A stretch of 64,000 bases of DNA. Source: Myxococcales bacterium. Lineage in GTDB: Bacteria; Myxococcota; B64-G9. The stretch spans positions 1 through 64,000 of the forward strand of contig JAAZNF010000072.1 in the NCBI GenBank assembly GCA_012798435.1, written 5' to 3'. The translations under genes and the position numbers were made by a program. Shown one piece after another: positions 1,162 through 42,122 of this stretch. Within the stretch, counting starts at the first letter, position 1. Each line of letters starts with the position of its first letter. Under the pieces are notes generated by a model, which was not told the DNA's origin, ran no database searches, and worked only from the letters and a program-made list of their open reading frames with translations.

Positions 1162-3036
1162 ATGCGAAACAAACTGAATAAACTCACATGGTTCGCCGGC
1201 AGATTCGACTTCTCCATCGCTGGAAAATGGCTGTTCCTCGGTGTCCTCGTGGGCCTGGTCAGCGGCGTCGGTGCGATTGCGCTCCAGTTCGGTTTACAGG
1301 CCATCCGCGAGCTTACCCTCATCGCGCTGGTGGGGCTCGATCTCGGCGGTCCGGGTGGCGAGTCACCGGAGCTCGGCCTCCGTCTTCACTCCTTCGTTCC
1401 GTATCTCGTGGTCTTGGTCCCGGCGCTGGGGGGCCTGGCGGCCGGGGTGCTCGTGTTCTGGCTCGCTCCGGAGGCGGAAGGACACGGCACCGACGCGGCC
1501 ATCGACGCCTATCACCGCAAGCTCGGCCGCATCCGCGCTCGCGTGCCTCTCATCAAGATGGTCGCCTCGGCCATCACCATCGGCACGGGAGGATCCGGCG
1601 GGCGCGAGGGTCCCATTGCCCAGATCGGCGCCGGATTTGGCAGCTTCTTGGCGTCACGCCTCGGCCTGAGCGCCCGGGAGCGGCGGATGCTCCTGGCGGC
1701 CGGCATCGGCGGGGGCGTCGGCGCGATCTTCCGCGCGCCGCTCGCCGGGGCCATCTTCGCCGCGGAGGTGCTCTACTCATCGGCAGAGGTCGAGGCCGAG
1801 GTGCTGCTGCCGGCCATGGTGTCATCCATCGTCGGCTACGCCGTGTTCGCCAGCCGCTTCGGCTGGGGGCACATGTTCACGGGAGCCGGTACGCACGGAT
1901 TCTCGAATCCGCTCGAGCTCGGGCCCTATCTCGTGCTCGCCCTGGTTGTCGCCGGCGGCGCGCTGCTCTACATCAAGGCCTTTTACGGAGCACGCTCGCT
2001 ATTCGCACGCGTCCCACTGCCACGCCCCTTTCGCCCGATGTTGGGGGGCGCCATCACGGGCGCCATCGGGCTGGCGCTCATCCTGCTCTTCGGTCAGTCC
2101 CGCGACATCGGGGACGTGCTGTCGAGCGGCTACGGGATCATTCAGCACGTGGTCGACACGGACGGCGCGGGTCTTTCCGTGCTGCTGCTGCTGGCCGTGG
2201 CGTTCGGCAAGATCATCACGACCTCGACCTCCATCGGCTCCGGGGGCAGCGGCGGCGTCTTCGGTCCGTCGATGGTGATCGGCGCGACGCTCGGCGCCGC
2301 GGTGGGCAACACCTTCCACGCCATCATGCCGGGGGTCGTGCAGCACCCGATGACGTTCGCCGTGGTAGGAATGGCCGGGTTCTTCGCGGCTGCCGCCAAG
2401 ACCCCGATCTCGACGGTGATCATGGTCAGCGAGCTGACGGGCGACTACGCGCTGCTCGTGCCGAGCATGTGGGTGTGCGCCTTCGCTTTCCTCGTGAGCC
2501 GCGACTGGACCATCTACCGCAGCCAGCTCCCTTCACGTGGGCTGGTGTTGCCTCAGACAGGGGCCGCAACTCCCGCAGCGCTGGCGCATCTCCGGGTCGG
2601 TGACGTCTTCCATCGAGAGCGACGCTTCGTCCAGGTCCGACCGACAATGTCGTTGCAGGAGATCATGCGCGTCTCTGAATCCACGCGACAACGCGTGTTC
2701 CCAGTGACCAGCGAGGACGGGGTCCTCGAGGGCGCGTTTCGCATCGACCAGCTCATCCACGCCGTGCAGGAAGGCAAGGCGTCCGTGGCGCGGGAGCTTC
2801 TCGACGACCGCGTCTTCTTCGTACGTGAGACCGATACGATCGAGCGGGCGCAGCTCATGCTTCGCAACAACAGCCTGGAAGAGCTGCTGGTCGTCGTGGA
2901 CGGAGCCGATCAGCGAGTCGTGGGTATCTTGACCATGGGGGACATCCTGCTCGCGTACCAGCGAGTGATGGCGAACCCGCAGGATGCCGATGCGCCGATC
3001 CAGAGACGGCCGTCAGATGATGTCTCCAAGGATTGA
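1162..3036 (+). CDS. ClC-family chloride channel/transporter with C-terminal CBS pair
   Basis: A 624-residue ClC protein that moves chloride across the inner membrane. About ten membrane helices cover residues 20-450. The signature GSGGREGP holds the gating Glu, and GSGGSGGVFGPS supplies the later anion-site motif. Two CBS domains follow (about 480-600; VGDVF... and ...GILTMGDILLAYQ), which in this family sense nucleotides. At the proton-glutamate position it reads AAEVLYS, that is Glu-Val rather than the Glu-Glu of E. coli ClcA. That resembles channel-type members, so it may be a passive channel (inference). GAGGG at 1149-1153 lies 8 nt before the ATG; an in-frame GTG at 1153 would add three residues. 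No operon partner is evident. Confidence 0.92.
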   Translation: MRNKLNKLTWFAGRFDFSIAGKWLFLGVLVGLVSGVGAIALQFGLQAIRELTLIALVGLDLGGPGGESPELGLRLHSFVPYLVVLVPALGGLAAGVLVFWLAPEAEGHGTDAAIDAYHRKLGRIRARVPLIKMVASAITIGTGGSGGREGPIAQIGAGFGSFLASRLGLSARERRMLLAAGIGGGVGAIFRAPLAGAIFAAEVLYSSAEVEAEVLLPAMVSSIVGYAVFASRFGWGHMFTGAGTHGFSNPLELGPYLVLALVVAGGALLYIKAFYGARSLFARVPLPRPFRPMLGGAITGAIGLALILLFGQSRDIGDVLSSGYGIIQHVVDTDGAGLSVLLLLAVAFGKIITTSTSIGSGGSGGVFGPSMVIGATLGAAVGNTFHAIMPGVVQHPMTFAVVGMAGFFAAAAKTPISTVIMVSELTGDYALLVPSMWVCAFAFLVSRDWTIYRSQLPSRGLVLPQTGAATPAALAHLRVGDVFHRERRFVQVRPTMSLQEIMRVSESTRQRVFPVTSEDGVLEGAFRIDQLIHAVQEGKASVARELLDDRVFFVRETDTIERAQLMLRNNSLEELLVVVDGADQRVVGILTMGDILLAYQRVMANPQDADAPIQRRPSDDVSKD

Positions 3037-3218
3037 GCGACGGCCCGCTACTGCAGGAGAGTAGGCGTGCGGCGCCTTATCCTCCGGGTTGCCCCGGGTA
3101 GGTTTCCGCACGCCCCTCGCCGAACCCGGCGTACACCTTTCGCTGTGCACCGGGCTCTCTATAGATGACAGCGCGAAGTCGGGTGGGACGAGCCACGCAT
3201 GCCGAAAGCGCTCCACGC

Positions 3219-3668
3219 TCAGCGAGACCAGCTCGAAGGGTCGGACGTCGCCGTCCTGCCACCGCATGGTCCTGCCGCCTGGCTTGCACCAGCCGCGTAG
3301 TAGCCTTTGCCGACAACCACGGGAAGCTGTTTGAGAAGATCGAGCAAGCCCAAAGTCGCGTCGGGAGTGACGCTGGAGTCTTTGCCGGGCGGGGTCTGAT
3401 GAAACTCGTCCAGATTCTTGCGCCATTCGGCAAATTTTTCATCAACGGCACTCCTCACCTTACCCAGAGCCTGGCCAAGCTGATCCCTGGCCCATTGACG
3501 GGCCTGCTCTTCGGTGACCTCGAAAGGTTCCAGCCTTGTTTGCTCGACGCTCCGTATTTGCCCTGACAAATTGGAAATGCAAAACGACCCTCCCGGCAGC
3601 TCTTCCCCATCCGGAACAAGGTAGAATCGGCGGGGATTTTCAACGCTTGACCACTGTGATGCTGTCAT
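3219..3668 (-). CDS. Hypothetical protein downstream of FGE-like gene; C-terminus probably frameshifted
   Basis: 149 residues with no recognised domain. The N-terminal two thirds (NPRRFYLVPDGEELPGG..., then a charged region RQWARDQLGQALGKVRSAVDEKFAEWRKN, quoted here in part as DEKFAEWRKN) looks like a real helical protein. The last 30 residues are low quality, and a more protein-like reading (PFELVSLSVERFRHAWLV) continues in another frame to 3013. A 1-base indel near 3290 is therefore suspected. The start ATG at 3668 has AGGAG 7 nt upstream and overlaps the preceding gene by 29 nt, which suggests translational coupling in the 4993-to-3013 minus-strand cluster. Confidence 0.5.
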   Translation of the reverse strand: MTASQWSSVENPRRFYLVPDGEELPGGSFCISNLSGQIRSVEQTRLEPFEVTEEQARQWARDQLGQALGKVRSAVDEKFAEWRKNLDEFHQTPPGKDSSVTPDATLGLLDLLKQLPVVVGKGYYAAGASQAAGPCGGRTATSDPSSWSR

Positions 3669-4166
3669 CTGCAGGCTCCTGGTTATCTCTTTTCAGCAGT
3701 GGCTGGATGTATCTGATCGGAGGATCATTCAGCTCGGCGATTGCTGCCAGAAACTCGGGACGTACCGGATCGTCGATCTTTTCCAGCGCCTGGACGACCC
3801 ACCCCCTGGCTAGCGGCGCCGAAAGCGGGGCAGGGAGAAGGGCCAACCTTTTCATCATATCCGCGTTAAGCCCGCTTTGGTCAAAATATGTCCAAGGGTT
3901 GAAACACAATGGAACTGGTGATTTCGGCAGCGTCTCCCGCCCTGGCAATACGCCGCACTGAGACCACCGTCCGAGAAATGGGGACTCGGGGTCGCTCGCG
4001 GGGCGCTCCGGGACGCCTCCGGTGCAGACAACGGCGCTGACACTTACGGCCTTCGGAGCCGGTGGAAAGCCCTCTCCGCCGGCGGCGCTGTCCATCGCCC
4101 AGCTAGCGCGGCACAAACCGCCAGAACCGCAAGAGGCAGCCATCGCTCAGATCGAAGTGCGCTCAT
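3640..4166 (-). pseudogene. Secreted hypothetical protein split by an apparent frameshift
   Basis: Two overlapping readings appear to be parts of one gene. An ATG at 4166 overlaps the stop of the FGE-like gene as ATGA and encodes a good signal peptide (WLPLAVLAVCAALAG), but that frame stops at TAA 4044-4046. The other frame is open from a weak ATG at 4143 to 3640 and encodes a plausible mature part, including CFNPWTYFDQSGLNADMMKR and a helical C-terminus (ARGWVVQALEKIDDPVRPEF). A shift between about 4046 and 4140 would join them. No slippery heptamer is visible, so mutation or a sequence error is likelier than programmed frameshifting. The function is unknown. Confidence 0.5.
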
Positions 4167-4993
4167 GGGTCACTCGCGCACCGGAACCCGATCCCCGGGT
4201 TGCGCTCGCTCGGGCGGGCGCGGCCGCGGCGGGAGGTGCGTAGGTCGGAAAGGTCGCTGAGAAACGACCCGCCCCGGATCACCCGGTAGGCCTCTTTGGC
4301 AAAAGGTTGCCGCTCGGCTGGGTATGACTGATCCTGGTAGCCGTCCGCCGTCCACTCCCATACGTTGCCGGCCATGTCCAGCAGTCCCTCGGGAGCCTTC
4401 CCGTCCGGGAAGCTGCCCACCGGAGCCGTGCCGACATAGCCGTCATCGTAGCCGAACACCGCCATCACCGCGCTGGGGAAGACCTTGCGCCCCTTGTCGT
4501 CGGCCAGGTTGGCCCTCGGCTTGTCGAGCCCCGTGTTCCCCCACGGGAACTTGCGCCCGTCGGTCCCACGCGCCGCGCGCTCCCACTCCATCTCGGTCGG
4601 CAGACGCTTGCCCTTCCAGCGGCAGAAGGCCGCGGCCTGCTCGAAGGTGAGACAGTTGACCGGGTGTCGCGCGCGGTCGGCTTTGCCGAAATTGCATGCC
4701 CAGGCCCACTGCGCCTGCTCGGCCCCGGCGATGAACGGCGACTCCAGTCCCTCGGCCGAACACTGCCCGGCCTCCAGGCATCGGCTGTAATCCTCTACCG
4801 TGACCTCGGTGCGATCGATGGAGAACGCGTCGAGCCTCACCAGGTGCAGCTTGTCTTCGTCCGAGCGGCAAACCCTGTCCACCTTCCGGTTGCATCCCGC
4901 CAAAAATTCGCCCGCCGGAACACGAATCATTTCGCCGAGAACACCCGTCGACGCGAACAGCCCCGCGAGAACCCAGAAAAAAAACCAGGCCAT
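4163..4993 (-). CDS. Formylglycine-generating-enzyme-like (SUMF1 fold) secreted protein
   Basis: 276 residues: a hydrophobic N-terminal segment (about residues 1-20, signal peptide or anchor), then one FGE-sulfatase domain. Family hallmarks are IRVPAGEFLAGC, the DRTEVTVEDYSRC strand, RLPTEMEWERAARG, FPWGN, DMAGNVWEWT, RVIRGGSF and the C-terminal GIGFRCA. Genuine formylglycine-generating enzymes carry a catalytic cysteine pair between RGGSF and GFRCA. Here that stretch (LSDLSDLRTSRRGRARPSE) has no Cys. I infer a non-catalytic or binding-type member, which is common in bacteria with many FGE-like paralogues. No sulfatase gene is nearby. Its stop overlaps the ATG of the next secreted ORF (ATGA), marking the head of a small operon. 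Confidence 0.85.
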   Translation of the reverse strand: MAWFFFWVLAGLFASTGVLGEMIRVPAGEFLAGCNRKVDRVCRSDEDKLHLVRLDAFSIDRTEVTVEDYSRCLEAGQCSAEGLESPFIAGAEQAQWAWACNFGKADRARHPVNCLTFEQAAAFCRWKGKRLPTEMEWERAARGTDGRKFPWGNTGLDKPRANLADDKGRKVFPSAVMAVFGYDDGYVGTAPVGSFPDGKAPEGLLDMAGNVWEWTADGYQDQSYPAERQPFAKEAYRVIRGGSFLSDLSDLRTSRRGRARPSERNPGIGFRCASDP

Positions 4994-5179
4994 GTTCGTG
5001 CCCTTTCTACCCGCGCGGGCAGTCTATTCCATCCCGGCCGGGTGTAAAGGGTTCGCGCACCGAGAAACTGGAAGGCTCCTGTCCACACTGGCTCCGGCGG
5101 CCCCGGTCCGCGCCTGGGTCACGGCTAGCGCTGCCGGGCATGAGGTGGTTTTTTCCATGTCGGAACCAGAGAAAAATGC

Positions 5180-5207
5180 TTGCATCGGGCGGCGTTGTGA
5201 ATATCAT
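5180..5207 (+). promoter_or_regulatory. Candidate promoter for the parvulin gene
   Basis: TTGCAT at 5180-5185 and TATCAT at 5202-5207 are separated by 16 nt, about 38 nt upstream of the start codon at 5246. The -10 matches five of six consensus bases and the -35 only about half. This is a weak prediction. Confidence 0.3.
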
Positions 5208-5245
5208 GGCCGTCCGGCGATTCTCCCCTGTTCCAAGGAGCGGTC

Positions 5246-6880
5246 ATGCTCGAAGAAATCCGCAAGCAATCCCAGAGCACGTTGATCATCATCCTGTTCG
5301 GGTTCATCATCTTCGTGTTCGTGTTCTCCTTTGGTGCGGGCTCGCGCGGCTTCCGAGAGGGCGGCTGCGGCCGCACCGGGGTGGCGGCGCTGGTGAACGG
5401 CGAGCCGGTGTCCGAAACCAGCTTTTCCTTCTACTACAGCCAGCACCTCAACTCATTGCGACGCCGCCTGGAGTCCGGCAAGGCCCTGAAGCCCGAGGAG
5501 AAGCTCCAGCTCCGCCAGGAGGTGCTCCAGTCTCTGGTCGATCAGGCCATGCTGCGCCAGGCCGCCTATCGCTCCGGATTGTACGTCACCGACGAGGAGC
5601 GCAACGATGCCATCCGCAACATGCCCGCCTTCCAGGACGAGAAGAAGCGCTTCTCCTTCAAGCTGTACTCCCTGTTCGTGCAGCGCTACTTGCAGACCAC
5701 CACGGACGTCTTCGAGGAGTTGCAGCGCGAGGAGATGCTGGCGCGTCGCATGGCGGAGATCGTGCAGGACACGGCCCGGGTGATGGACGACGAGGTCGAA
5801 ACCGCCTACCGCCTGCGCGAGACCAAGATCGACCTGGAGTTCGTCAAGATCTCGGCGGCCAAGTTCGCCTCGGACGCCGCCATCCCCGACGAGCGGGTGG
5901 CGGAGTTCCTCAAGGAGCATCCGGAAGAGGTGAAGGCAGAATACGAGGCCCGGAGCGACACCTACCACAAGCCGAAGCAGGTGCAGGTGGCCCACGTCTT
6001 TTTCGAGAAGCGCCAGGGTTACGACGCCGACCAGATCCGCGAGAAGCGCGAGCAGGCCGAGATCTCGGCCGACGACCTCAAGAAGGGCGCCGACTTCGCC
6101 TCCCAGGCGCGCGAGTATTCCGAGGACGACGCCACCCGCGAGAAGGGCGGCGAGCTCCCCATGCTCACCCGGGAGCTGCTCTCCGCCCGCTTCGGCAACG
6201 CCTTCGCCGAGGCCGCCTTCGCGCTCGAAGAGGGAGCGATCAGCCCGGTGGTCGAGTCCGACAAGGGCTTCCACGTCATCAAGGCCCTCAAGATCATCCC
6301 GGCCGAGGATCACCCGCTCGAGGAGGTCCAGCACGACATCGCCCGCTCGCTCATCCGCCGGCGCGACGCCAACCAGAAAGCCCGCGCCGAGGCCGAGCGC
6401 ATCCTGGCCGCGGTGAAGGGCGGCAAGAAGCTCGCCGAGGTAGTGCCCCCCGTCCCAGAAGACCAGCAAGACAAGCCGGACGCCACCGAAGGCCTCGGCA
6501 GCCGGCGCAGCGGGTTGTTCTCACGCATGATGCCCTTCGTGCCGGGCGTGGGCATGAACGAAGACCTCGTCCGCGCCGCCTTCGAGCTGCCCCGTGACAA
6601 GCCCTTCTACGACGGGGTGTTCACCCTGGGGGCCGTCGACGGCCTCGAGGAATACCTGGTGTTCGGCGTGGCCGAGCGCAAGGACCCGGACATGGCCGCC
6701 TTCGCCGAGGCCAAGCCTGCGCTACGCAACCAGCTCCTCATGATGCGCCGCTACCAGCAGGTGGCCTCCTGGAGCGAGCACCAGCGGTCCCGCGCCCGCG
6801 TCGAGGTCAACCAGGCGCTGCTCACCGCTCCGGAACGCGCCAAGCGCGGCGTCGAACCGATTCCGGTGGACGATTTCTGA
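5246..6880 (+). CDS. Membrane-anchored parvulin-type peptidyl-prolyl isomerase (SurA/PpiD-like)
   Basis: 544 residues. One N-terminal membrane anchor (about 12-32, IIILFGFIIFVFVFSF) is followed by a periplasmic SurA_N/PpiD-like chaperone region (about 40-230). A PpiC/rotamase domain follows at about 245-355 (VAHVFFEKR, then KGGELPMLTRELLSARFGNAF, quoted in part as GGELPML, and SDKGFHVIKAL). A C-terminal extension contains a second, non-rotamase region. The architecture matches periplasmic folding factors that help outer-membrane proteins, consistent with the many envelope proteins in this window. The ATG at 5246 follows AAGGAG. It is transcribed divergently from the FGE-like gene and has no obvious operon partner. 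Confidence 0.88.
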   Translation: MLEEIRKQSQSTLIIILFGFIIFVFVFSFGAGSRGFREGGCGRTGVAALVNGEPVSETSFSFYYSQHLNSLRRRLESGKALKPEEKLQLRQEVLQSLVDQAMLRQAAYRSGLYVTDEERNDAIRNMPAFQDEKKRFSFKLYSLFVQRYLQTTTDVFEELQREEMLARRMAEIVQDTARVMDDEVETAYRLRETKIDLEFVKISAAKFASDAAIPDERVAEFLKEHPEEVKAEYEARSDTYHKPKQVQVAHVFFEKRQGYDADQIREKREQAEISADDLKKGADFASQAREYSEDDATREKGGELPMLTRELLSARFGNAFAEAAFALEEGAISPVVESDKGFHVIKALKIIPAEDHPLEEVQHDIARSLIRRRDANQKARAEAERILAAVKGGKKLAEVVPPVPEDQQDKPDATEGLGSRRSGLFSRMMPFVPGVGMNEDLVRAAFELPRDKPFYDGVFTLGAVDGLEEYLVFGVAERKDPDMAAFAEAKPALRNQLLMMRRYQQVASWSEHQRSRARVEVNQALLTAPERAKRGVEPIPVDDF

Positions 6881-9808: not shown

Positions 9809-10564
9809 ATGGATGAAGGCTACTACGCTCACCCGGTGCGCTACGACGCCGAGTACGCCTCCTTCACCGCGGACGTGGGGTTCTACCTCTCGCGGGCGCG
9901 CGCCGCCGCGGGCCGGGTGCTGGAGCTCGGCTGCGGCACCGGCCGGGTGTTGCTGCCGCTGGCCCGCGCCGGACTCCCCATCGACGGCCTGGACAGTTCT
10001 GAGCCCATGCTCGAGGCACTGCGGCGCGTCGGCCCGCCCTCCTCCACCCGGCTGCACCTCGCCGACATGCGGGACTTTGAGCTTCCCGAGAGCTACCGGC
10101 TGGTGATCGCCCCGCTGAACGCCCTGATGCACCTCTTGTGCGATGACGATCTGCGCGCCTGCTTGCGTTGCGTGCGGCGTTGCCTCGCGCCCGGCGGCCG
10201 GCTGCTCTTCGACGTCCACAACCCCATCCCGGAGCTGCTGCGTCCTTCCCCGCCCGAGGGGACGGCGCTGCGCAACCTGGTCATCGCCGGAGAGTGGTTC
10301 GCCCAGCGCGAGTTCTTCAGCTACGACGACACACAGCGCATCGGCGACATCGTGTACCGTTTCGAACCGCTCCGCGGCGGCGAGAGTCTCTCGACCCGCC
10401 TGCGGTTGCGCTACTACCCGCCCGAGGCGCTGGACGCGCTGCTGGCGGAGGAAGGGTTTGCGCTTCGTTCGCGCCAGGGTGGTTTTTCGGGCGAGCCCTT
10501 CTTCGCCCAGAGCTTGACGCAGGTCGTCGAGGCCGAGCCGGGGAACCTCACGCCGCGCCAGTAG
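9809..10564 (+). CDS. Class I SAM-dependent methyltransferase
   Basis: 251 residues with the AdoMet-binding motif I VLELGCGTGRVLLPLA (about 32-47), the acidic motif II region (IDGLDSSEPML) and post-motif LAPGGRLLFDVHNP. The C-terminal part is the beta-rich end seen in small-molecule or ubiquinone/menaquinone-type methyltransferases. The substrate is unknown. It follows the saccharopine dehydrogenase-family gene by 18 nt, so the two are probably one transcript. Whether they share a pathway cannot be judged from sequence. Confidence 0.85.
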   Translation: MDEGYYAHPVRYDAEYASFTADVGFYLSRARAAAGRVLELGCGTGRVLLPLARAGLPIDGLDSSEPMLEALRRVGPPSSTRLHLADMRDFELPESYRLVIAPLNALMHLLCDDDLRACLRCVRRCLAPGGRLLFDVHNPIPELLRPSPPEGTALRNLVIAGEWFAQREFFSYDDTQRIGDIVYRFEPLRGGESLSTRLRLRYYPPEALDALLAEEGFALRSRQGGFSGEPFFAQSLTQVVEAEPGNLTPRQ

Positions 10565-10639: not shown

Positions 10640-13600
10640 ATGAAAAAATCGATGCCAGTCGCCACCGCGATCTTGCTCGTCCTTTCGCTTTGCCCCGCTT
10701 CGCACGCGGAATCACCGTTCCAGGAGGCCCTGCGGGCCATGGCCGCGGGCGATCTCGGACGCGCCCAGGGTGCGTTGTCCCGACTCATTCGCGGCAACGA
10801 CGCCATCTCGCTCGAGGCCAGCCTGCTCACGGGTCGTGCGCTGTTCTTGGCCGGCCGCGTCGACGAGGCCGCGCGCATTTTCCAGCGCGTGCAACAGGCC
10901 GACCCGGCGGGCCGCTTCGGTACCAAGGCGCGCTTCGCCCTGGCCGAGTGCCGCGCCCGGCAGAAGGACTTCGAGAGCGCCGAGCGCCTCTACGCCGAGG
11001 CCCTGCAGCTCCTCAGCGCACCCGCCCACCTGGAGGAGATCGCCAGGCGTTTCATCGAACTGGCCGAGGAGGCCCTGCGGCCCAGCGAGCGCAAGGAGCC
11101 GGACCCGGCCCGGGCGGAGCGCCTGCTGCGGCGCGCGCTGGAGTTGCTGCCCAAGGGCCCGCTGGCGGAGGATGTCGAGCTCCGCATCGCGCGGTGCCAA
11201 TCCCGCCAGAAAAAGTATGCCGAGGCGGCGACCTTCCTGGAGTCGATCCTCAAGCGCACGCCCCCACCGGCTCGCGCCGACGAGATCCGTTTCCGCCTGG
11301 CGCAGGCGCTGCAAAAGGCCGGCAACCCGTCCCGCGCGCGTCTTTTCATCCGTGAGATCCTGGACCAGGAGCCGCCCTCTGCCTACCGGGCCTCGGCGCG
11401 GTTCCTGCTCAGCCGGAGCTACGGCTTCCCCCAACCCAAGACGACGAAGGATCTGTACGAGGGGCAGGAAGCGCTGCGCCGCTTCGTCTCAGACCACCCA
11501 TCCGATCGCCGCGTGGAGCAGGCGCGCCGGGAGCTGTTCCTGGCGCCGCTCGCCCAGAACCGCTTCTGCGAGGCGGAAGAGGAGATCCGCGAGGCGATTC
11601 GCAAAGGCGGGTCGGCGGACTTCTTGGGCATCGCCCGCTTTCACCTCGGCGTGGCGCTCGCGTGTCAGGGGCGCCTGGAAGAAGCCGCGGCGGCCTACCA
11701 GGATTACCTCCAGGAGCACCCGGCGCACTTCCACTGGCTCCAGGCCCGCGCGGCCATCGAGGAGCTGGCCTGGGAGATGGGCGAGCGCGCCAGGTCCAAG
11801 AAAGACTGGCCTATGGCGGCCAAGAAATACGAGGAGTTCGCCGAGCGCTTTCCGGCCTCGCCGCGCGCCCCCCTGGCGCTGCGCCGCGCCGCCGACGCCT
11901 GCGTGGAACAGAAGCAGATCGACCGGGCCCTCGCGCTGCTCAATCTCTTGAGCGCCAAGTTTTCCGCTTCGCCCGAGGCGATCGCGGCGCAGCTCGAGAT
12001 GGCGCGCCTTTGGGAGGAAGAAAAACTCGACGCCACCCGAGCGCGCGAGATCCTGCGCAAACTGGAGGCGACCCACAAGAACGGAGAGGCCGCCGCGCGC
12101 CTGCTCATGCTGGACCAGCCTTCGCTGGTCATCGAAAAGCACCCGGTGTTCCGCTCCGGTGAAAAACCACGCCTGGTCTGGAGAACCCGGAACATCGAGG
12201 CAGTGGCGATCCGATCTTTCCGGCTGCGGGCGGAAGACTTCTTCCGCGAGCACCTTTCCTTCGAAAAGCTCGCCAACGTAGACATCGCCCTGTGCACCCC
12301 CGACGCCTCCTGGACGGTGCCGATCCGCGATTTCCGCCGCAGCGTCCGCCTTCGGCAGGAGGTTGAGCTGCCCTTCGCCCGCCCTGGCCTGTACCTGGTC
12401 CAGCTCTCCGCCGGCAAGCTCGAGGCCACCACCATCGTGCTGGTTTCCGACCTCGGCCTCATCCTCAAGCGAACGCCCGAGGAGCTGTTCGTCTTCGCCC
12501 AGGATCACAAGAGGCTTGTCCCCGCGACCGGGACACGGCTGATCGTCGCCAACGCGCAAGAGATCGTGGCCGAGGGCAACACCGACGCCGAGGGAGTGTT
12601 CCGCAAGAGCTGGCCGCCCGGCCGACCCAGCGAGCCGCTGTCGGTCCTGGCCTTCCAGGGCGAGCACGTCGTGTGGTCCGACGCCGAGGAGGCCGAGGGC
12701 GACCAGCAGGCGGAGCCCACGGCGCGGGCCTTCGTCTTCAGCGATCGGCCGGCCTACCGCCCCGGCGACGAGGTCCACCTGGCCGGTATCCTGCGGCCCA
12801 TCCCCGGCCCGGTGCCCACATTCCAGCCGGGTGGCAAGTGGACGGTGGCGGTGAGCTGCAACGGGCAGACCATCTGGGAAGCGCCGGTGACGCTCGACGA
12901 GTTCGGTGTCTTCTCGACGGCGCTGCGCTTGGAGCCGGACGCCCCGCAGGGAGGCTGCAACTTCACCGTCGGCGATGGGCTCAAGGCCTTCTCCGGCTCG
13001 TTTCTGGTCACCGAGTTCCGCCGGCTCCCCATGCAGGTCCAGGTGGCGCTCGACCGTCCGGTGATATTCCAGGGCGAAAAGATCGAGGGAGTCATCGAGG
13101 TGCGTCACGCCCACGGAGCGCCGGCCGCGGGAGAGAAGGTGCTCTATCGCCTGAGCGCGCCGGCGACCTGGAGCCGCCCCACCTATCAGTTCGACGGCCA
13201 GGTGCGGTTCTATGACACCTCCGGCGCACGAGAGAAGGACATTCCCTGGCAGGAAGGCCTGACCGACGAGACCGGCCGGGTGCGGTTTTCCTTTCACACT
13301 CGCGGATTCGAGGAGGAGACGCGCCGCGAGATCCAGGTCCGTCTGCCGGCCCACCACCAGGTGGCCGAGGCTACGGTCCTGGTCTCGGTGTCGCAGTTCA
13401 ACGCGAGTTTGAAACTCGGCCACCCGGCCGTGGTCGCCGGGGTCCCCTTCCCGGTCACGCTGAAGCTGCACGGACCGGACGGGGCCCCCGCATCCGGCAG
13501 TGCCGTGGTGGAAGCGTTCTACCTTCCTTCCGCTGGACGCGAGGAACGCGTCGAGAGGCGCGAGGTGTCGGTGAGCGATTCCGGCGAGGCCACGCTCATG

Positions 13601-16600
13601 TTCACCCTGGCCCGGCCCGGCGCCCATACCCTGCGCCTGCTGGCCTGGGATCGCGCCCGTCATCCGGTGGTGGCGGAGCTGAGTCTCTCGGTGACGGGAA
13701 CCGAGGAAGACGGCTTCAGCATCGAGCTGGATCGGGCCGAGTACGCGGCCGGTACCGCTGCCCGCGTCACCCTTCGCAACCAGGGCAAAGACAGCCTCAT
13801 CCTGCTCACCGAGGAGACCGAGCGCGTGCTGCGCCACCGGGCGGTGCGCGTCCACGCTGGCATCACCAGCGTCGAGTGGCCCATCCGGCCGGAACTGGCG
13901 CCGAACTTCCTGCTCGCGGCCGCGGCCATCAACGGCGACCGGCTGTGGCAGGCCGGGCGCGAGGTGATGGTCTCCCAGGCGCTCACCCTCACGCTGGTGA
14001 CCGACCGCAAGTCCTACCAGCCCGGCGACGAGGTCACGGTCACGCTGTCGGCCCGGGACGCCGCGGGAAGGCCGGCGGATGCGCGGATGATCCTCTCTGC
14101 GGTGGACGAGACGCTGCTGCGTACCTTTCCCGAGGAACTCCCCGATTTCTTGGGCAGCTTCTTCACGGAGCGGGTCCTGGGCCAGGTTGTGACCACCGGC
14201 TCGAATGAAATCCGCTTCGATGAGGTGGAGGCCGAGGAGAGCGAGGAGGCCGAGGTCCTCGAGACCGAGGGTTCGGCAGCCATGGCCGCGCTGCGGGAGC
14301 GGCGCAAGAGCGTGACCGACAAGGGTGCTGGTCTGCTCGGCAGCGTCATGGGAGACAGCGTGGGAGTCGGCGGCCTGGGCACCCGCGGTTACGGCTCGGG
14401 CGGCGGCGGCTCGGCGTACGGCCGGGTCGGCGGAAAGTCGTCCATCAAGATGGGCGCCGCCAACGTCATGGGCGCTGGCGATGGTTGGCTACGCCAGCAC
14501 TTCGCCGAAACGGCCGCTTTTCTCGCCGACCTTCGCACCGGCCCGGACGGAGTGGTCTCGGCCACTTTCCGTCTGCCCGATAGCCTCACCACCTGGCGCC
14601 TGCTGGCCCGCGCCGTCACCCAAGACACCAAGCTGGGCGAGATCCGGGTGAGCCGGCCGGCGGCGAAGACCTTCTTCGCCGAACTGATCGTCCCGCCGGA
14701 GGTCGAGGAGGGAGACGTACTGGAACCGCTGGTGCGCCTCTTCAACGACTCGCCCGTGCCCCGCAAGGTCCATGTCGAACTCGACGCAGCGCCGGCGCCG
14801 GAGGCGCGGGAGCTCGAGGTGCCCGCGTACCGCACCGCCGAGGCCCGTTTCGGCGCACGTCAAGCGACCGCGGCTGGTTCGAGCCTCGTCTTGTCGGTGA
14901 ATGCCAGCGCCGGGCCGCTCGCCGATCGCCTGAAGAGGGAGATCCCGGTGCGGCCCCGCGGCGCCCGCGTGGAGCGGACGTTGCTGGGCATGACTGACAA
15001 GGCTGCCACGATGCGCTTCGATCTCGGGCAGACCTGGAAGGACCCGGCGGTCCGGCTCACGGTGAGCCTCAACCCCACCCGGTTCCTGCTGGGCGCCGGT
15101 TTCGACCCCCTGCGGTTCTCCGATCGGCCGGAGGAGGCGCTGCTCTCGATCCGCTTGCTTCGGCTGCTGGGCGGAAAGTCACATCCCGCCATGCTCGAGC
15201 CGGTGCGAGCCCACTTGCGAGCCGTGCTCAACCGCCTCATGCGCACGCAATACGACAGCGGTGCCTTTGGACTCACCCGGGCCTTTGCATTCAACGACCT
15301 CTCGGTCACGTGCAGCGCCGTGCGCGCGCTGGCGGAGGCCCGGCCGTTGCTCGGAGAGCTGCGCCTGAACGTCTCCCAGCAGCCGCTCGACTGGGCGGTG
15401 ACCTACCTGCGCGAGCAGCTCGCCTCATTGCCGCCCGACGACTGGACATCCCGCGCCACCGCCATCTGGGCCCTGGCGACCGTGGGCGAGGCGCAGGTGC
15501 CGACGGTCCAGTTGCACCGTCTGCACCGCTTGCGCGGACAGATGCCGCCGGAGGCACTGGTCCGGCTCGGCCTGGCCTGGCTGGCGCTGGGCCGCACCGA
15601 GCAGGCGAGCGAGGTGCTGCGCACGCTGCGGCCGAGCCTCAAGTTCGGCGACGCGCCCCCCGCGGTTCGCCGCTTCGCGAACGTCAGTTGCGGCTCGAGC
15701 CGGCGCATCCTGTTCGAGGCGCTGCGCTTGCTGGCCGCGCTGGCGCCGGCCGATCCCTTGACGGCGGAGGGAGCCCGCTGGCTGTGGAACGAGAGCACCG
15801 CGGTCGGTTTCTTCGGCGTCGAGGAGGCCGAGGCCGCGTTACAGGCCATGCTGGACACCCAGCCGGCTGCGCTGAGGGGCGGTCGCGCCGACGTCCAGGT
15901 GTCATGCAACGGTGCGCCGGTGGCCACCCTGCGGCTAGGCCCAGAGCGCGACGTCGCCGAGGTCGACCTGCCCCGCGCTTTCTTGCGAAGCGGCAAGAAC
16001 GCGCTCGAGCTTCGCGTCGAGGGCAGCGGCGCGGTGCTGTACCAGGCGGCCGTCAGCGCCTGGGACCCGGGTCCGTTCGGCGTCGAGGAGCAAGCCGGCC
16101 CGGTCTTCATATCCCGCCACGTGGACCTGCTGCCGGCGCTGTACCGCGGCGAGGAGGTCCAACGCGGCTTTTCCGCGCTCCAGGCCGGAACCAAGCCCTG
16201 GAACGACGACATCGCCGATCTCCCGGCCGGCCGCCGGGCCCGGGTCACCATCGAGGTGTGGGCCGCAAAGGACGTCTCGCTGCCGCAGCTCGCGGTCGAG
16301 GAGCGGCTCCCCGCCGGCGTGGAGTTCGTCGAAGGCAGCACCGGTCGGGGAGACTTCGGCCTGCTGCGGCAGGGCCGCCGGCTCGCCTTCTTCCTCCCGC
16401 CCGGACAAGGCACGCGCCGCATCAGCTACGACATCGAGGGCGTGTTCGCCGGCCAGTGGCGCTTCGGTCCGCTCCGGGCCATCTCGCTGGTCCGGCCCGA
16501 GGACGAGCTTATCGTGCCGGAGTACGCGCTGGCGGTGGCGGCGCCCGGCGCGCCGGGGCCCAAGGTCCGCCCCACCCCCGACGAGCTGCTCGACCGGGGA

Positions 16601-18289
16601 AGGTTGGCGGCCCGGTTCGAAGAACACCCGATCGTGATCGAGACGCTGGAGCCACTGCTGGCCACGGCCGCGCTGCGCGAGGAGCACCTCGGCGCGGTCC
16701 TGGGGCACCTGCTCTTTTCGTCCATCGCGCTCTCCGATCACGAGCGCACCTTGAAATACTTCGAACTCACCAAGGAAAAGAACCCCGACTTCGTCATCCC
16801 CTTCGACAAGCTCGCCGCCATCCAGCACAGCTACCGCACCCAGAAGGTCTTCGAGGGCGGCGTGCACCTGGCCCGCGGCTCCGCGGACGCGCTGTTCATG
16901 CGCGAGATGCGCCAGGTGGGCATGCTGGTCAACGAGGAGGAGGTGGCCGAGGCCATCCGCCTGTTCGACCGGCTCGCCGGCGCTTACCCGGCCAGCGCCC
17001 AGAACGCCCTGGCACGCTACGCCTTCAGCCAGCGCCTGTTCTCCCGGGCCGACCGCCTGGCCGATGGAGAAACCTTGCCCGGCTTCGACCGGCCCGGCCT
17101 GCTCGGCGCCGTCTCGGAGCAGATGAGCCGCTACCTGGCGGAATTCCCCGAACATCCCCATGTCGCCGACGCCTTCCTATCCTTGGCCTCGGCTCACCTG
17201 GAGCGGGACGATTTCGACGAGAGCATCGCCTGGGGCCGGACGGGCCTGGCCCGGCACCCGGAATCGGACATGGCACCGGCCATCCGGTACTTTCTGGCCT
17301 TCGCGCACTTCCGCCGGGGCCACTTCGACGAGGCCATGCGCTTGTGCCAGGAAGTGACGAAGAACTCCGAAGAAGACGACAACGGCGCCATGGCGAACTA
17401 CATCATGGCGCAGATCCACCACGCCCGCGGCAACATCCAACGCGCCCGGGAGCTCTACGAGAAGGTCGAGAGCCGCTTCCGCGACGCGGCCGAGACGCTG
17501 GCCGACTTCGAGCGCGAACGCTTTGAGCTGCCGGAGCTCATCAACGTGCCGGCCGGCCGAGAGGTGGTGCTGCCGCTCCAGGTCCAGAACATCCGCCGCG
17601 TGGACCTGCGCGCCTACCCGGTGGATCTGCCGCGCCTGGTGCGGCTCAAGGGCTCGCTGGCGAAGTTCTCCGACATCAACCTGGCCGGCATCCAGCCGGT
17701 GTGGTCTCGCACCCTCGAAGTGCCGCAGTCGGACGGGCGGATCCAGTCGATCGACGTCCGCCCGGTGCTCGGCCAGCGCGGCGCCTTCCTGGTGCTGGCC
17801 CGTGCGGGCGCGCGGGTCACTCACGCGCTGGTGCTGCGGGACAGCCTGCAACTCGACGTGACCCAAAACCCGAGCGAGAGCCGCATCCGGGTCACGGTGC
17901 GTGACTCCCGCGGACGGCCCGTGCCGGGGGCCCGGGTGCTGCTGCGCGGCAGCGAGAGCAGCCGCTTCCTGGCCGGCAACACCGACCTGCGCGGCATCTT
18001 CGTGGCCAACGAGGTGGACGGCACCGTCACCGTGGTAGGGAGCCACCAGGGCGCCTTTGGGCTCTTCCGAGGTGGCACCGACGAGGGCTCCGGCAACGAA
18101 GACGAACCGCCGCCGCCCCGGGTGCCAAGACCCGCGCCGCCAAAGGCCAAGCGCGGGCAAAAGACGCAGATCGACTTCGAAGACGTCCCCGTCGATGGGA
18201 TGCTGCAAAAGCCAGACGCCAACGCCGGGCAGCAGTTCTTCGACGAGGCCGAGCAGACCCAGGGCATGACCGCCAAGCAAGCCATGTGA
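10640..18289 (+). CDS. Giant TPR / alpha-2-macroglobulin-like protein without thioester
   Basis: 2549 residues with a Sec signal peptide (about 1-23, ILLVLSLCPASHA). Order of regions: TPR array (about 25-480); MG1-like (490-610); MG2 (about 690-790; DRPAYRPGDEVHLAG); further MG repeats (800-1110); bait/MG7 entry (about 1113; DRKSYQPGDEVTVTLSA); Gly-rich hinge (1230-1280); A2M core (about 1281-1330; FRLPDSLTTWRLLA); an alpha-helical domain in the thioester-domain position (1470-1750); a second TPR array (1985-2300); and a C-terminal Ig-like region with a charged tail. The Cys-x-Glu-Gln thioester is absent: the position reads GFDPLRFSDRPEEAL. Bacterial A2Ms usually have 1500-1900 residues. Family role: periplasmic or surface proteinase trap. 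Without the thioester, binding must be non-covalent (inference). Confidence 0.85.
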   Translation: MKKSMPVATAILLVLSLCPASHAESPFQEALRAMAAGDLGRAQGALSRLIRGNDAISLEASLLTGRALFLAGRVDEAARIFQRVQQADPAGRFGTKARFALAECRARQKDFESAERLYAEALQLLSAPAHLEEIARRFIELAEEALRPSERKEPDPARAERLLRRALELLPKGPLAEDVELRIARCQSRQKKYAEAATFLESILKRTPPPARADEIRFRLAQALQKAGNPSRARLFIREILDQEPPSAYRASARFLLSRSYGFPQPKTTKDLYEGQEALRRFVSDHPSDRRVEQARRELFLAPLAQNRFCEAEEEIREAIRKGGSADFLGIARFHLGVALACQGRLEEAAAAYQDYLQEHPAHFHWLQARAAIEELAWEMGERARSKKDWPMAAKKYEEFAERFPASPRAPLALRRAADACVEQKQIDRALALLNLLSAKFSASPEAIAAQLEMARLWEEEKLDATRAREILRKLEATHKNGEAAARLLMLDQPSLVIEKHPVFRSGEKPRLVWRTRNIEAVAIRSFRLRAEDFFREHLSFEKLANVDIALCTPDASWTVPIRDFRRSVRLRQEVELPFARPGLYLVQLSAGKLEATTIVLVSDLGLILKRTPEELFVFAQDHKRLVPATGTRLIVANAQEIVAEGNTDAEGVFRKSWPPGRPSEPLSVLAFQGEHVVWSDAEEAEGDQQAEPTARAFVFSDRPAYRPGDEVHLAGILRPIPGPVPTFQPGGKWTVAVSCNGQTIWEAPVTLDEFGVFSTALRLEPDAPQGGCNFTVGDGLKAFSGSFLVTEFRRLPMQVQVALDRPVIFQGEKIEGVIEVRHAHGAPAAGEKVLYRLSAPATWSRPTYQFDGQVRFYDTSGAREKDIPWQEGLTDETGRVRFSFHTRGFEEETRREIQVRLPAHHQVAEATVLVSVSQFNASLKLGHPAVVAGVPFPVTLKLHGPDGAPASGSAVVEAFYLPSAGREERVERREVSVSDSGEATLMFTLARPGAHTLRLLAWDRARHPVVAELSLSVTGTEEDGFSIELDRAEYAAGTAARVTLRNQGKDSLILLTEETERVLRHRAVRVHAGITSVEWPIRPELAPNFLLAAAAINGDRLWQAGREVMVSQALTLTLVTDRKSYQPGDEVTVTLSARDAAGRPADARMILSAVDETLLRTFPEELPDFLGSFFTERVLGQVVTTGSNEIRFDEVEAEESEEAEVLETEGSAAMAALRERRKSVTDKGAGLLGSVMGDSVGVGGLGTRGYGSGGGGSAYGRVGGKSSIKMGAANVMGAGDGWLRQHFAETAAFLADLRTGPDGVVSATFRLPDSLTTWRLLARAVTQDTKLGEIRVSRPAAKTFFAELIVPPEVEEGDVLEPLVRLFNDSPVPRKVHVELDAAPAPEARELEVPAYRTAEARFGARQATAAGSSLVLSVNASAGPLADRLKREIPVRPRGARVERTLLGMTDKAATMRFDLGQTWKDPAVRLTVSLNPTRFLLGAGFDPLRFSDRPEEALLSIRLLRLLGGKSHPAMLEPVRAHLRAVLNRLMRTQYDSGAFGLTRAFAFNDLSVTCSAVRALAEARPLLGELRLNVSQQPLDWAVTYLREQLASLPPDDWTSRATAIWALATVGEAQVPTVQLHRLHRLRGQMPPEALVRLGLAWLALGRTEQASEVLRTLRPSLKFGDAPPAVRRFANVSCGSSRRILFEALRLLAALAPADPLTAEGARWLWNESTAVGFFGVEEAEAALQAMLDTQPAALRGGRADVQVSCNGAPVATLRLGPERDVAEVDLPRAFLRSGKNALELRVEGSGAVLYQAAVSAWDPGPFGVEEQAGPVFISRHVDLLPALYRGEEVQRGFSALQAGTKPWNDDIADLPAGRRARVTIEVWAAKDVSLPQLAVEERLPAGVEFVEGSTGRGDFGLLRQGRRLAFFLPPGQGTRRISYDIEGVFAGQWRFGPLRAISLVRPEDELIVPEYALAVAAPGAPGPKVRPTPDELLDRGRLAARFEEHPIVIETLEPLLATAALREEHLGAVLGHLLFSSIALSDHERTLKYFELTKEKNPDFVIPFDKLAAIQHSYRTQKVFEGGVHLARGSADALFMREMRQVGMLVNEEEVAEAIRLFDRLAGAYPASAQNALARYAFSQRLFSRADRLADGETLPGFDRPGLLGAVSEQMSRYLAEFPEHPHVADAFLSLASAHLERDDFDESIAWGRTGLARHPESDMAPAIRYFLAFAHFRRGHFDEAMRLCQEVTKNSEEDDNGAMANYIMAQIHHARGNIQRARELYEKVESRFRDAAETLADFERERFELPELINVPAGREVVLPLQVQNIRRVDLRAYPVDLPRLVRLKGSLAKFSDINLAGIQPVWSRTLEVPQSDGRIQSIDVRPVLGQRGAFLVLARAGARVTHALVLRDSLQLDVTQNPSESRIRVTVRDSRGRPVPGARVLLRGSESSRFLAGNTDLRGIFVANEVDGTVTVVGSHQGAFGLFRGGTDEGSGNEDEPPPPRVPRPAPPKAKRGQKTQIDFEDVPVDGMLQKPDANAGQQFFDEAEQTQGMTAKQAM

Positions 18290-18463: not shown

Positions 18464-20494
18464 TCACTGCTCGAGGATGACGAACTCGACGCGCCGGTTG
18501 AGCTCCCGGCCGCGGATGGTGTTGTTGGGAGCGATGGGACGATCGGGGCCGAAGCCCTGGGACTCGAGGCGCTCGGGAACCACGCCCTGCTGGACGAGGT
18601 AGTCGCGCACCGCCTGCGCCCGCTCCCCCGAGAGCCGCCGGTTGAGGGCCAGCGAGCCCTGGCTGTCGGTGTGGCCCTCGATGCGCACCTTGCGGATCTC
18701 GGGGTGGTTGGCCAGCACGTCGACCACCGCGTCCAGGATGGCGAAGCTGTCGCGGGCGATGGAGGCCTTGGCGGTCTCGAAGTGGATCTTCTTTTGCAGC
18801 ACGATGCGGTTCTTCTCGATCACCACCACCTTCTGCTTGGGCGCCGGGGTGAGGCGAAATTCCGCGTGGAAGGTCTGGCCTTCCTTCAGCTCCACGGTGC
18901 GGGCCTTGGCCAGGTACTTGTCGGCGCTCACCTTGACGATGTAGGTCCCCGGGGGAAGCTCGGCGGAGAAGCTCCCGCTGTCCGGGGCGCTCTCGAGAGT
19001 CGCCTGGCTCGGGCCGGAGATCTCGACCTGGGCCTGCATGGGCTTCTCGGCCTCGTTCTGCACCGTGCCCGAGAGCGTGCCTCGCTTGAGTTCCGGTTCG
19101 AGCGTGAAGTCGAGCAGCGTCATCTCGCCGGCCTTGACCTCGGCTTCCTGGGTCTGCGGCTTGAAACCCTGTTTGCTAGCGGTGAGCTTCACCATCCCGG
19201 CGGTGAGGTCGTAGGTGGCGTAGCGGCCCTCCGCCGTGTCGGTGGCCACCGGCGTGATCACCCCGCCCTCGAAGGACACGATGGCCTCGGGGATGATGGA
19301 CTGGTCGGCCGCGGAAAGCACCCGGCCGGCGACTCGCCCGGTGGTGACGGGGGCCGGGACGAGCTTCTCGACCACCTTCTCCACGGGCTTCTCGATCACG
19401 CGGGTCTCGGCCTTGACAAAGGGATCGAAGGCATAGGCCAGACCGATCCACACCACGTACGGCGGCACCGCCGGTACTCCGTTGAGGTAGGCCTTCTCCC
19501 CGCCGATGCCGATGTCGACAGCGAGGTCGAGGGTGATGTCGTCGAGGTAGGTGATCCGCACTCCCGGCGTCAGGCGCATGCCGATCACGTTGGCCAGCGT
19601 GGTCCGGGTGCCTAAGGAGGCGCCGTCGAGATCGTCGCGGCCCACGCCCACCGGGATCTGCAGGGAGTACTCCAGGAAGGGCTGGATGGCCACCGGGTCG
19701 GCGTACGGCAGCGGCGCGTCCAGGGCGAATCCCAGGGCCACGCGGTGGAAGCGGTTCACCCGCAGCGCGAAGGCCTCGATGTGAGACAACACCCGCTCCC
19801 CGGCCAGGTTGTCGCCGTTCTCGAAGACCATGCCGGCGTTGAGGTGAAGACGCAGCGGGACCTTGGGTTCGAGCTTGCGCACGTCGAAGCTGGCCAGAAA
19901 GGCTGTGCGCACCCCGGTCCCCGAGAACTCCGGGCTGGAGTCACCGATGCCGTTCATGAAGTTCACCGCCAGGTCGGCGCCGAGCGAGAGCGAGGGGATC
20001 ACGGCGTAGTAGCCCTTCACGCCCAACTCGAAGTCGCCCTGGGTCTGGAGCAGGTTGGGGCGGGAAGCGGTGTTCTGATTGGAAGAGTTGCGCAGGTTGG
20101 CGAAGACCTCCAGAAACGGCAGCACCGTCATGGCCAGACCGGCGCGAAACACCTGTTGGGACTCGCTGTAATCCTTCCAGTTGGGATCGGTCTTGAGGAA
20201 AGATTCGCTCTGGAACAATCCGCCGTGGAGCGACAGCCGGAAGGTCAGCGGCTTTCCCGAGCCCGCCTCCATGACGTTGAGCAGGCCGGTTTCGCCCCCC
20301 GGGGCAGCAGAGAAGAACCGCAGGCGTTCGAGCGCCGGCGCCTCACCCTCCGCCGTGGCCTCGACCTTCACCGCGGGAGCGGGCGACATCGAGTCCCGGA
20401 TGGCCCGGTCGGTGGCGTCGAGATTATCCGACGCCAGGCCCCGCGCGCTGCACAGCAATGAAACGGCCGCGACTGCAATTAGGGCGTACCGCAT
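18464..20494 (-). CDS. OmpA-family outer-membrane protein with carboxypeptidase-regulatory-like domains
   Basis: 676 residues. A signal peptide (MRYALIAVAAVSLLCSARG) is followed by a probable beta-barrel (about 50-340, alternating strands). A Pro/Glu/Lys/Val hinge (EKPVEKVVEKLVPAPV) leads to a carboxypeptidase-regulatory-like domain (about 360-440), a PEGA-like second domain (GTLSGTVQNEAEKPMQAQVE, about 455-530) and a C-terminal OmpA/MotB domain. The OmpA domain has IEGHTDSQGSLALNRRLS, SQGFGPDRPIAPN and RELNRRVEF, the peptidoglycan-binding signature. The start at 20494 has GGGAGG about 8 nt upstream; the earlier ATG at 20533 lacks a signal. It is probably driven by the promoter at 20541-20570 and ends facing the A2M gene. 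Confidence 0.9.
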   Translation of the reverse strand: MRYALIAVAAVSLLCSARGLASDNLDATDRAIRDSMSPAPAVKVEATAEGEAPALERLRFFSAAPGGETGLLNVMEAGSGKPLTFRLSLHGGLFQSESFLKTDPNWKDYSESQQVFRAGLAMTVLPFLEVFANLRNSSNQNTASRPNLLQTQGDFELGVKGYYAVIPSLSLGADLAVNFMNGIGDSSPEFSGTGVRTAFLASFDVRKLEPKVPLRLHLNAGMVFENGDNLAGERVLSHIEAFALRVNRFHRVALGFALDAPLPYADPVAIQPFLEYSLQIPVGVGRDDLDGASLGTRTTLANVIGMRLTPGVRITYLDDITLDLAVDIGIGGEKAYLNGVPAVPPYVVWIGLAYAFDPFVKAETRVIEKPVEKVVEKLVPAPVTTGRVAGRVLSAADQSIIPEAIVSFEGGVITPVATDTAEGRYATYDLTAGMVKLTASKQGFKPQTQEAEVKAGEMTLLDFTLEPELKRGTLSGTVQNEAEKPMQAQVEISGPSQATLESAPDSGSFSAELPPGTYIVKVSADKYLAKARTVELKEGQTFHAEFRLTPAPKQKVVVIEKNRIVLQKKIHFETAKASIARDSFAILDAVVDVLANHPEIRKVRIEGHTDSQGSLALNRRLSGERAQAVRDYLVQQGVVPERLESQGFGPDRPIAPNNTIRGRELNRRVEFVILEQ

Positions 20495-20540
20495 GGGATA
20501 CCTCCCGTCCTCGGGGAGCGGCGCTCTCGTCAACGGGGTC

Positions 20541-40898: not shown

Positions 40899-42122
40899 TC
40901 AACTGGCGGAGGGGTCGACGAGCTTACCCAGGAAGAGCAGCGCCCCCGAGGCCCGCTCGTGGAGCAGGTACAGGAAGGGCCGGTCGGCGCGGAACACGAA
41001 GGACGCCGGCACCGAGGTGATGCCCACCTCCACCGAGGTCACCGCCGCGGCCTCGGTCCCCTCCTCGTCCACCCGCACGTAGCTCTTGTGGCGCACCTCG
41101 CTGATGAACAGCCCGCCTTCCGCCAGGATTCGGGAGAAGTCCGCGCGTCCAGCGTCGAAGGCGATCTCCATGCCCAGGGCCGAGAGCACCGATTTTAGGG
41201 TGGTCTCGAAGGTGAGCTCGAAGCGCGGTAAAAAAACATCCCCCTCCTGCGGGATCAACCGAGCCATCCAGCCGGCCCAGCGCTCGGGCGTGAGCGAGGC
41301 CGCAAGCTGGTCTACCGTCTGTTCCGGCGCCGGCAGCAGGAAGGCCATGGCGAACTTCCCGTCGCCGTACGGAAGATCGAGGATCTGGACGTCGCCGTCG
41401 TCGAGGTAGGCGAGCTCGTCGTCATGAAGGTTCATCATTGGCACTTCCACCTCACCGCGCGTCCCGTGGAAGGCCGCCGGGGTGGTGGCCGACTTGTCGA
41501 ACCGGTAGGTCCAGTCGCCCTTGAAGTACACCGCGTTGATGAGGAACATCACCAGCGCCGGGTCGATGGGTTTGGCCACGATCTTGTCGATGCGGCCGTG
41601 GGTGGCGGCGCTGACCCAGGCGTTGATGGTGTCGGCGGCAGAAGGATCGTCGAAGTCGAGCGCGGCCACCAGCGCATCGAAAAAGGCCCGGTTGATCTCG
41701 ATGAAAGACGGCAGCACCGCCAAGCCCTGCCGGTACCAGATGGAGTTGGCGATCTCCATCTTCACGTGCGGGTCCAGGCGGGTGAGGTAATCGATCAGCG
41801 TGCGGTAGCCCCGGTTGATCTCCTCGTCGGTGAGCCCGGCGTGGCCCAGGGTGGCCTTCATGGCGGTCAGCGTCTCTCCGGCCGCGCCGTTCTCGGTCAT
41901 GCCGAGCGCCATGGACACCGAGAGCGGGGAGATGAACACGTTGCCGCCGTCGGAATGTTCGATGACCTTGGCAAAGAGCGAGAAGCCGAACTGGTTGGAG
42001 GCCTCGAGCAGGGAGAGCTCTCGCTGGCCGAGACCGGGAACCGGCAGGCGCCCGTCACCCCCGGAGCAGCCACAAAGCGCGACCACCACCGAAAACAGAA
42101 TCAGGCATCGCATCGGTCTCAT
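40899..42122 (-). CDS. Serpin lipoprotein (predicted P1 Thr)
   Basis: 407 residues. The lipoprotein signal (LILFSVVVALCGC) is followed by a complete serpin fold: NVFISPLSVSMALGM, INAVYFKGDWTYRFD, FLLPAPEQTVDQL and C-terminal DRPFLYLLHERASGALLFLG. The reactive-centre hinge DEEGTEAAAVTS has the small residues of inhibitory serpins. Counting 17 residues from the hinge Glu puts P1 at Thr in GITSVP. Serpins trap serine or cysteine proteases irreversibly; here the protein would sit on the membrane surface. GGAG lies 9 nt before the ATG at 42122; ATG 42113 is an alternative. A second serpin is at 49152. Confidence 0.93.
   Translation of the reverse strand: MRPMRCLILFSVVVALCGCSGGDGRLPVPGLGQRELSLLEASNQFGFSLFAKVIEHSDGGNVFISPLSVSMALGMTENGAAGETLTAMKATLGHAGLTDEEINRGYRTLIDYLTRLDPHVKMEIANSIWYRQGLAVLPSFIEINRAFFDALVAALDFDDPSAADTINAWVSAATHGRIDKIVAKPIDPALVMFLINAVYFKGDWTYRFDKSATTPAAFHGTRGEVEVPMMNLHDDELAYLDDGDVQILDLPYGDGKFAMAFLLPAPEQTVDQLAASLTPERWAGWMARLIPQEGDVFLPRFELTFETTLKSVLSALGMEIAFDAGRADFSRILAEGGLFISEVRHKSYVRVDEEGTEAAAVTSVEVGITSVPASFVFRADRPFLYLLHERASGALLFLGKLVDPSAS

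Follow-up and report, generated by a model that had tools for sequence, protein, structure and literature searches.

The window (the whole stretch of DNA analyzed, 64,000 nucleotides from a Myxococcales bacterium) carries a single open frame, from an ATG at 10640 to a stop at 18289 (+), that encodes an A2M-like protein of 2549 aa; codon-position GC across the 2549 codons is like that of real genes. A SAM methyltransferase gene (9809..10564, +) lies directly upstream, as it does in L058 and L063. Downstream, a convergent gene (18464..20533, −) encodes an OmpA-type protein with a β-rich N terminus (a probable outer-membrane barrel), CarboxypepD_reg (Ig-like) repeats, and an OmpA domain at the C terminus. 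Homologues of this neighbor adjoin the A2M gene or lie within a few kilobases of it in G001, G002, G005, G006, and G007, giving six genomes with the window's own. Neither pbpC (PBP1C) nor the mag/yfa-operon genes DUF1175, DUF2138, YfaP, and YfaQ, which the Escherichia coli YfaS locus has, occurred among the neighbors scanned. Farther along the window, 23–31 kb downstream of the A2M gene, are two serpin genes (40899–42122, −; 49152–50357, +; Pfam E = 1.6e-110 and 4.9e-104) with intact inhibitory hinges, EEGTEAAAVTSVEVG and EKGTEAAAATAVSTLA; one product has a lipoprotein-like start and the other a signal sequence. A further gene (43173–44627, +) encodes a lipoprotein-like protein with HYDIN/ASH-type Ig domains.

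Pfam matches above the family cut-offs place MG2 (residues 696–790), A2M_BRD (1027–1160), A2M (1292–1381), and bMG10 (1839–1954) in the 2549-aa protein, with TPR families at both ends. The preliminary description had proposed an A2M core between TPR arrays, and the order MG2, A2M_BRD, A2M, together with fold matches, bears this out. All segments lie on the + strand. The protein begins with a Sec-type signal sequence, MKKSMPVATAILLVLSLCPASHA (residues 1–24; 10640..10711), read from the sequence and matched by hydrophobic N termini in the orthologues; on the same reading, a canonical lipobox is absent from it. An N-terminal TPR array of about 12 repeats and 25 helices follows (residues 25–492; 10712..12115; Pfam, AlphaFold2), and then MG-a (about 495–600) and MG-b/bMG3 (601–690), the first of two duplicated pairs (12122..12709; Pfam, AlphaFold2, hhalign). 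The A2M core comprises MG2, further MG domains, and A2M_BRD (12725..14119; Pfam and a fold match to ECAM). Next comes a bait-side segment (residues 1161–1284; 14120..14491; orthologue comparison, AlphaFold2), in which lie a stretch conserved as EGSAAMAAL and the glycine-rich MGDSVGVGGLGTRGYGSGGGGSAYGRVG (about residues 1237–1266; 14348..14437).

Beyond the bait side lie the A2M domain (PF00207; residues 1285–1385; 14492..14794; Pfam), a thioester-domain toroid without a thioester (about 1480–1770; 15077..15949) that contains the former CxEQ site GFDPLRFSDRPEEAL (residues 1487–1501; 15098..15142), and the bMG10 domain (1839–1960; 16154..16519; Pfam). The C-terminal part repeats the pattern of the N-terminal one: a second TPR array (1971–2291; 16550..17512; Pfam, AlphaFold2) leads into a second MG-a (2291–2400) and MG-b/Ig-like (2401–2475) pair (17510..18064; AlphaFold2, hhalign). 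The tail carries a GltF/CglF-like motif, KTQIDFEDVPVDGMLQKPD (18140..18223), and ends in QGMTAKQAM (18260..18286), for which orthologue comparison gives the consensus VKGMSVxQA[KM].

The two flanks of the A2M core are related to each other. Profiles of residues 470–690 and 2280–2478 align with an hhalign probability of 99.0 (E = 3.2e-18), and BLASTP of the protein against itself pairs residues 356–654 with 2165–2454 (E = 4.6e-8), a span beginning in the TPR array and reaching into both MG-like domains. The same duplication is seen in the distant L013 and in five further full-length orthologues (BLASTP E = 3e-9 to 9e-12). The TPRs of both sides are therefore part of a duplicated TPR-MG-MG block, one copy of which flanks the A2M core on each side.

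The thioester is missing, as had been claimed. GFDPLRFSDRPEEAL aligns with YPYGCxEQTxSR/YPYGCTEQTMSR of thioester-bearing relatives, and CxEQ is absent from this site in the window protein and in nine orthologue sequences; the window protein's sole CxEQ string falls within a TPR, at residue 421. CxEQ is present in the genome's other two A2Ms (frames of 1952 and 2142 aa) and in four TPR-less Myxococcota relatives (1555-aa-type A2Ms). Action as a covalent trap is ruled out, because no copy has CxEQ.

Structure prediction with AlphaFold2, using orthologue alignments as input, was carried out on two segments, 1284–2478 (mean pLDDT 82.6) and 24–1205 (78.2); with pTM values of 0.56 and 0.48, the models do not establish the relative arrangement of the domains. 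The α/α toroid (TED) is predicted to be intact, with helices spanning 1498–1747 and a profile match to E. coli YfhM. A low-confidence stretch at 1483–1493 coincides with the former thioester position, so that GFDPLRFSDRPEEAL is modeled as a low-confidence loop running into the first toroid helix; the bait-side segment is likewise of low confidence where it is covered (to residue 1205). Foldseek matched the models to complement C5, complement C3, ECAM, and SaA2M. The best match of the C-terminal half was C5 (7ad6; E = 1.7e-22), and the A2M core matched ECAM (5a42; E = 3.9e-26). The A2M/complement fold is kept, and the thioester has been lost from every copy covering its site. Complement C5 is itself a member of the A2M superfamily that naturally has no thioester; it resembles the window protein in the fold of the C-terminal half but is an animal protein without TPRs.

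Orthologues were sought in the genomes of 58 relatives and in one scan of genome contigs. Full-length or contig-cut copies occur in eight of the nine genomes of the bacterium's own Myxococcota family (itself counted) and, among the 58 relatives, in a single genome from each of two other families. Those with names are MAGs labeled Deltaproteobacteria, Myxococcales, or Myxococcota, and a scan of viral contigs returned no relative of the protein. Identity to the window protein is 39–42% for full-length copies of the same family and 28% for L013. Comparison of orthologues had been suggested as a check on the architecture, and every complete copy has the order TPR - MG - A2M - TPR - MG. An architecture common to the orthologues is neither a chance product nor an assembly artifact; their equal length and order rule out an assembly or frame artifact.

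In a tree of the A2M core, a quick tree with long branches, the TPR-bearing A2Ms form a clade of one origin with full support. The remaining entries are thioester-bearing except for a cyanobacterial clade placed elsewhere, so its loss of the thioester and that of the TPR-A2Ms look independent. That cyanobacterial family (about 1900–1970 aa; Nostoc, Fischerella, Oscillatoria, and others; within L080–L137) lacks CxEQ and forms a clade of its own. YfaS falls apart from the window protein in the best tree, on a long branch; a grouping of the two gave p-AU = 0.057 and is not rejected, the grouped set also including a thioester-bearing Deinococcus protein.

The protein resembles Type I A2Ms (E. coli ECAM/YfhM and Salmonella SaA2M; 4ziu, 5a42, 4u48) in the order of its MG domains and in having a bait-region domain, an A2M domain, a TED toroid, and MG10, with fold matches to Type I structures at E = 5.6e-22 and 3.9e-26, but differs in having no CxEQ, no lipobox, no pbpC among the scanned neighbors, TPR-MG-MG blocks at both ends, and a GltF-like tail. 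With Type II A2Ms (Pseudomonas aeruginosa MagD and E. coli YfaS), it shares export and an A2M fold without a thioester, whereas its TPR blocks and tail, and the lack of a DUF1175/DUF2138/YfaP/YfaQ operon, set it apart. The preliminary description had contrasted the protein with typical bacterial A2Ms by its signal, its thioester, and its TPRs. The last two differences hold, although loss of the thioester is already known in bacteria as the Type II condition (MagD/YfaS; PMC5764988); the first does not, since a Sec-type signal is present and is thus no difference from ordinary bacterial A2Ms. We found no published description of a TPR–A2M fusion in a limited body of open-access literature. The A2M fold and the loss of the thioester are known, but neither the duplication of the TPR-MG-MG block nor the GltF-type tail is described in that literature.

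The tails of eight copies, the window's included, were searched against 18,950 NCBIfam families. CglF (NF033764) was the only family matched by seven of the eight (E = 1e-12 to 0.07); the match of the window's own tail is weak (E = 0.0002–0.014), and the matches reach 13–48 bits against a family cut-off of 90, covering the core and not the full 88 positions. Under an HMM of 24 true GltF proteins, tails scored 44.9, 44.9, 35.6, 30.7, 19.9, and 17.6 bits (the last being the window's), compared with 13.9 bits for the best of 10,000 shuffled tails of the same composition; the L009 and L014 tails scored within the shuffle range, and those of L008 and L013 gave no match. In a scan of 323 proteins, some 79 of them other A2M frames, nothing except orthologues of the 2549-aa protein rose above background. 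Besides the tail, CglF matches just three proteins in the genome, all small and GltF-like, and two of these adjoin GltG-like genes. The tail core reads YKKxTxxDFxDDxIxGxLxKPD, extending in L052 to xYLxxRK, and corresponds to about profile positions 20–60 of 88 of GltF/CglF (89 aa in Myxococcus xanthus). Unlike GltF, it is the tail of a very large protein and has no counterpart of GltF's C-terminal LIxxRxxF part. The tail carries the GltF/CglF core motif, with a weak match in the window's own copy.

A second, fainter resemblance lies on the bait side, where MGDSVGVGGLGTRGYGSGGGG resembles the glycine-rich linker of GltG/AgmX-type FHA–TonB proteins (GDSxGxGGLGxRGxGxGGGG); the window protein, in contrast, has no FHA domain, transmembrane helix, or TonB-like C-terminal domain. 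The window's match scores 18.3 bits, a weak margin over the 14.2 bits of the best local shuffle that preserved composition; only the window protein, L010, and L008 exceed their best such shuffle, and the match is absent in the distant L013. With so few copies beating the shuffles, we no longer treat this likeness as strong evidence. A GltG-like glycine-rich stretch, GVGGLGLRGAGVGGGG, also occurs on the bait side of an A2M (L056 in G012; frame 1893–6665) that comes from a different Myxococcota family and has the thioester.

Gliding of M. xanthus requires GltF, an envelope protein that belongs to the gliding complex, and GltG of this species binds the motor subunit AglR (PMC3169522; PMC4488436). 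The genome of the window contains two Glt-type clusters: C59, with GltC, TPR proteins, GltE, GltF, GltG, CglE, and a second GltG-like gene; and C92, with GltC-like, TPR, GltE-like, GltF, and GltG genes. The two (L147 and L149 in G000) are paralogous, and the second GltG-like gene of C59 is shorter, lacking the FHA part at its N terminus. The family (G000–G008) also shows a strong expansion of the AgmX/PglI C-terminal domain (NF033768), with 11 to 38 matches per genome. No linkage of the A2M gene to a glt cluster was seen. GltF is present in 51 of the 58 relatives, and its co-occurrence with the 2549-aa protein is uninformative because nearly all Myxococcota have it.

We tentatively favor an exported, periplasmic, noncovalent macroglobulin scaffold that docks to envelope machinery of the Glt type. 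Once exported by Sec, the protein would reside in the periplasm; its GltF-like tail, possibly together with the glycine-rich bait segment that resembles GltG, would attach it to a trans-envelope machine of this type at the place where GltF docks; the TPR arrays would hold further partners; and the conserved OmpA-type neighbor would tie the assembly to peptidoglycan and the outer membrane. It would then act as an adaptor, a load-bearing connector, or a noncovalent trap held at that site, rather than trapping proteases covalently as a soluble protein. The earlier proposal of a scaffold or noncovalent role is a reasonable one on this evidence; its suggestion that partners are bound through the TPRs gives way to the more specific partner to which the GltF and GltG motifs point. 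The association with Glt is suggested by motif similarity.

A wider version of the docking proposal is speculative and rather unlikely. GltF cores also occur inside VIT-VWA proteins (L184, L185, L190), DUF4139/DUF4140 proteins (L186, L187, L188, L191), and a DUF4349 protein (L189) of relatives, and the core could be a portable docking tag on unrelated large Myxococcota envelope proteins—thioester-less macroglobulin, VIT-VWA, DUF4139, and DUF4349—that recruits them to Glt/Agl-type proton-driven trans-envelope machines, the macroglobulin now being a mechanical or adaptor part. If the tail does dock to Glt machinery, a complement/macroglobulin fold would have changed from protease trap to trans-envelope machine component, and other clients of such machines in Myxococcota with multiple Glt-like clusters could be found by a short, readable tag, the GltF core.

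The most serious competitor of the docked scaffold, although somewhat unlikely in our judgment, is a Type II-like noncovalent trap, in which the macroglobulin, once its exposed bait has been cut by a protease, would change shape and close around that protease, with the TPRs and tail serving only to hold the protein in the envelope. P. aeruginosa MagD sets the precedent by trapping protease despite having no thioester (PMC5764988). A bait-region domain is recognized in the window protein, and the bait segment is modeled with low confidence. The two secreted or lipoprotein-like serpins downstream, with their intact hinges, and the two thioester A2Ms make protease control look like a theme of this genome; the serpins, being of inhibitory type, fit such a setting and count against the Glt-scaffold reading. 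Against a trap, the scanned neighbors include no mag/yfa-operon partners, unlike those of E. coli YfaS, and the best tree keeps the protein and YfaS separate, although their grouping is not rejected. The bait segment is also among the more conserved parts of the protein (about 47–51% vs. 41% overall), but this is weak evidence, because a thioester-bearing pair is also conserved there (76% vs. 57%); for the same reason, we dropped bait conservation as proof of a nonbait role.

An envelope structural or biogenesis factor unrelated to Glt, whose TPRs chaperone or hold the OmpA-barrel neighbor and whose tail is a common Myxococcota linker, is unlikely. The recurrence of the OmpA-type gene next to or near the A2M gene in six genomes fits it, as does the closest resemblance of the TPR segments, which is to YbgF/CpoB- and BamD-type envelope TPRs, and GltF-like segments do lie in linkers of several unrelated protein families. 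Against a generic linker, the tail match is residue specific and beyond the reach of same-composition shuffles, and the GltF-like family was found neither in 14 control genomes at the cut used nor in other A2Ms. Finally, a decaying or neofunctionalized A2M without distinct function, its thioester simply lost as in the cyanobacterial clade and YfaS, is highly improbable, as it is contradicted by the intact frame and by a length and architecture conserved at 28–42% identity across several genera and three families, which need long purifying selection.

The division of bacterial A2M operons into Type I and Type II is blurred by a Deinococcus plasmid (L228, 1444–7227), on which DUF1175, a gene that elsewhere marks the mag/yfa operon without a thioester, adjoins an A2M that has one (YPYGCTEQ).
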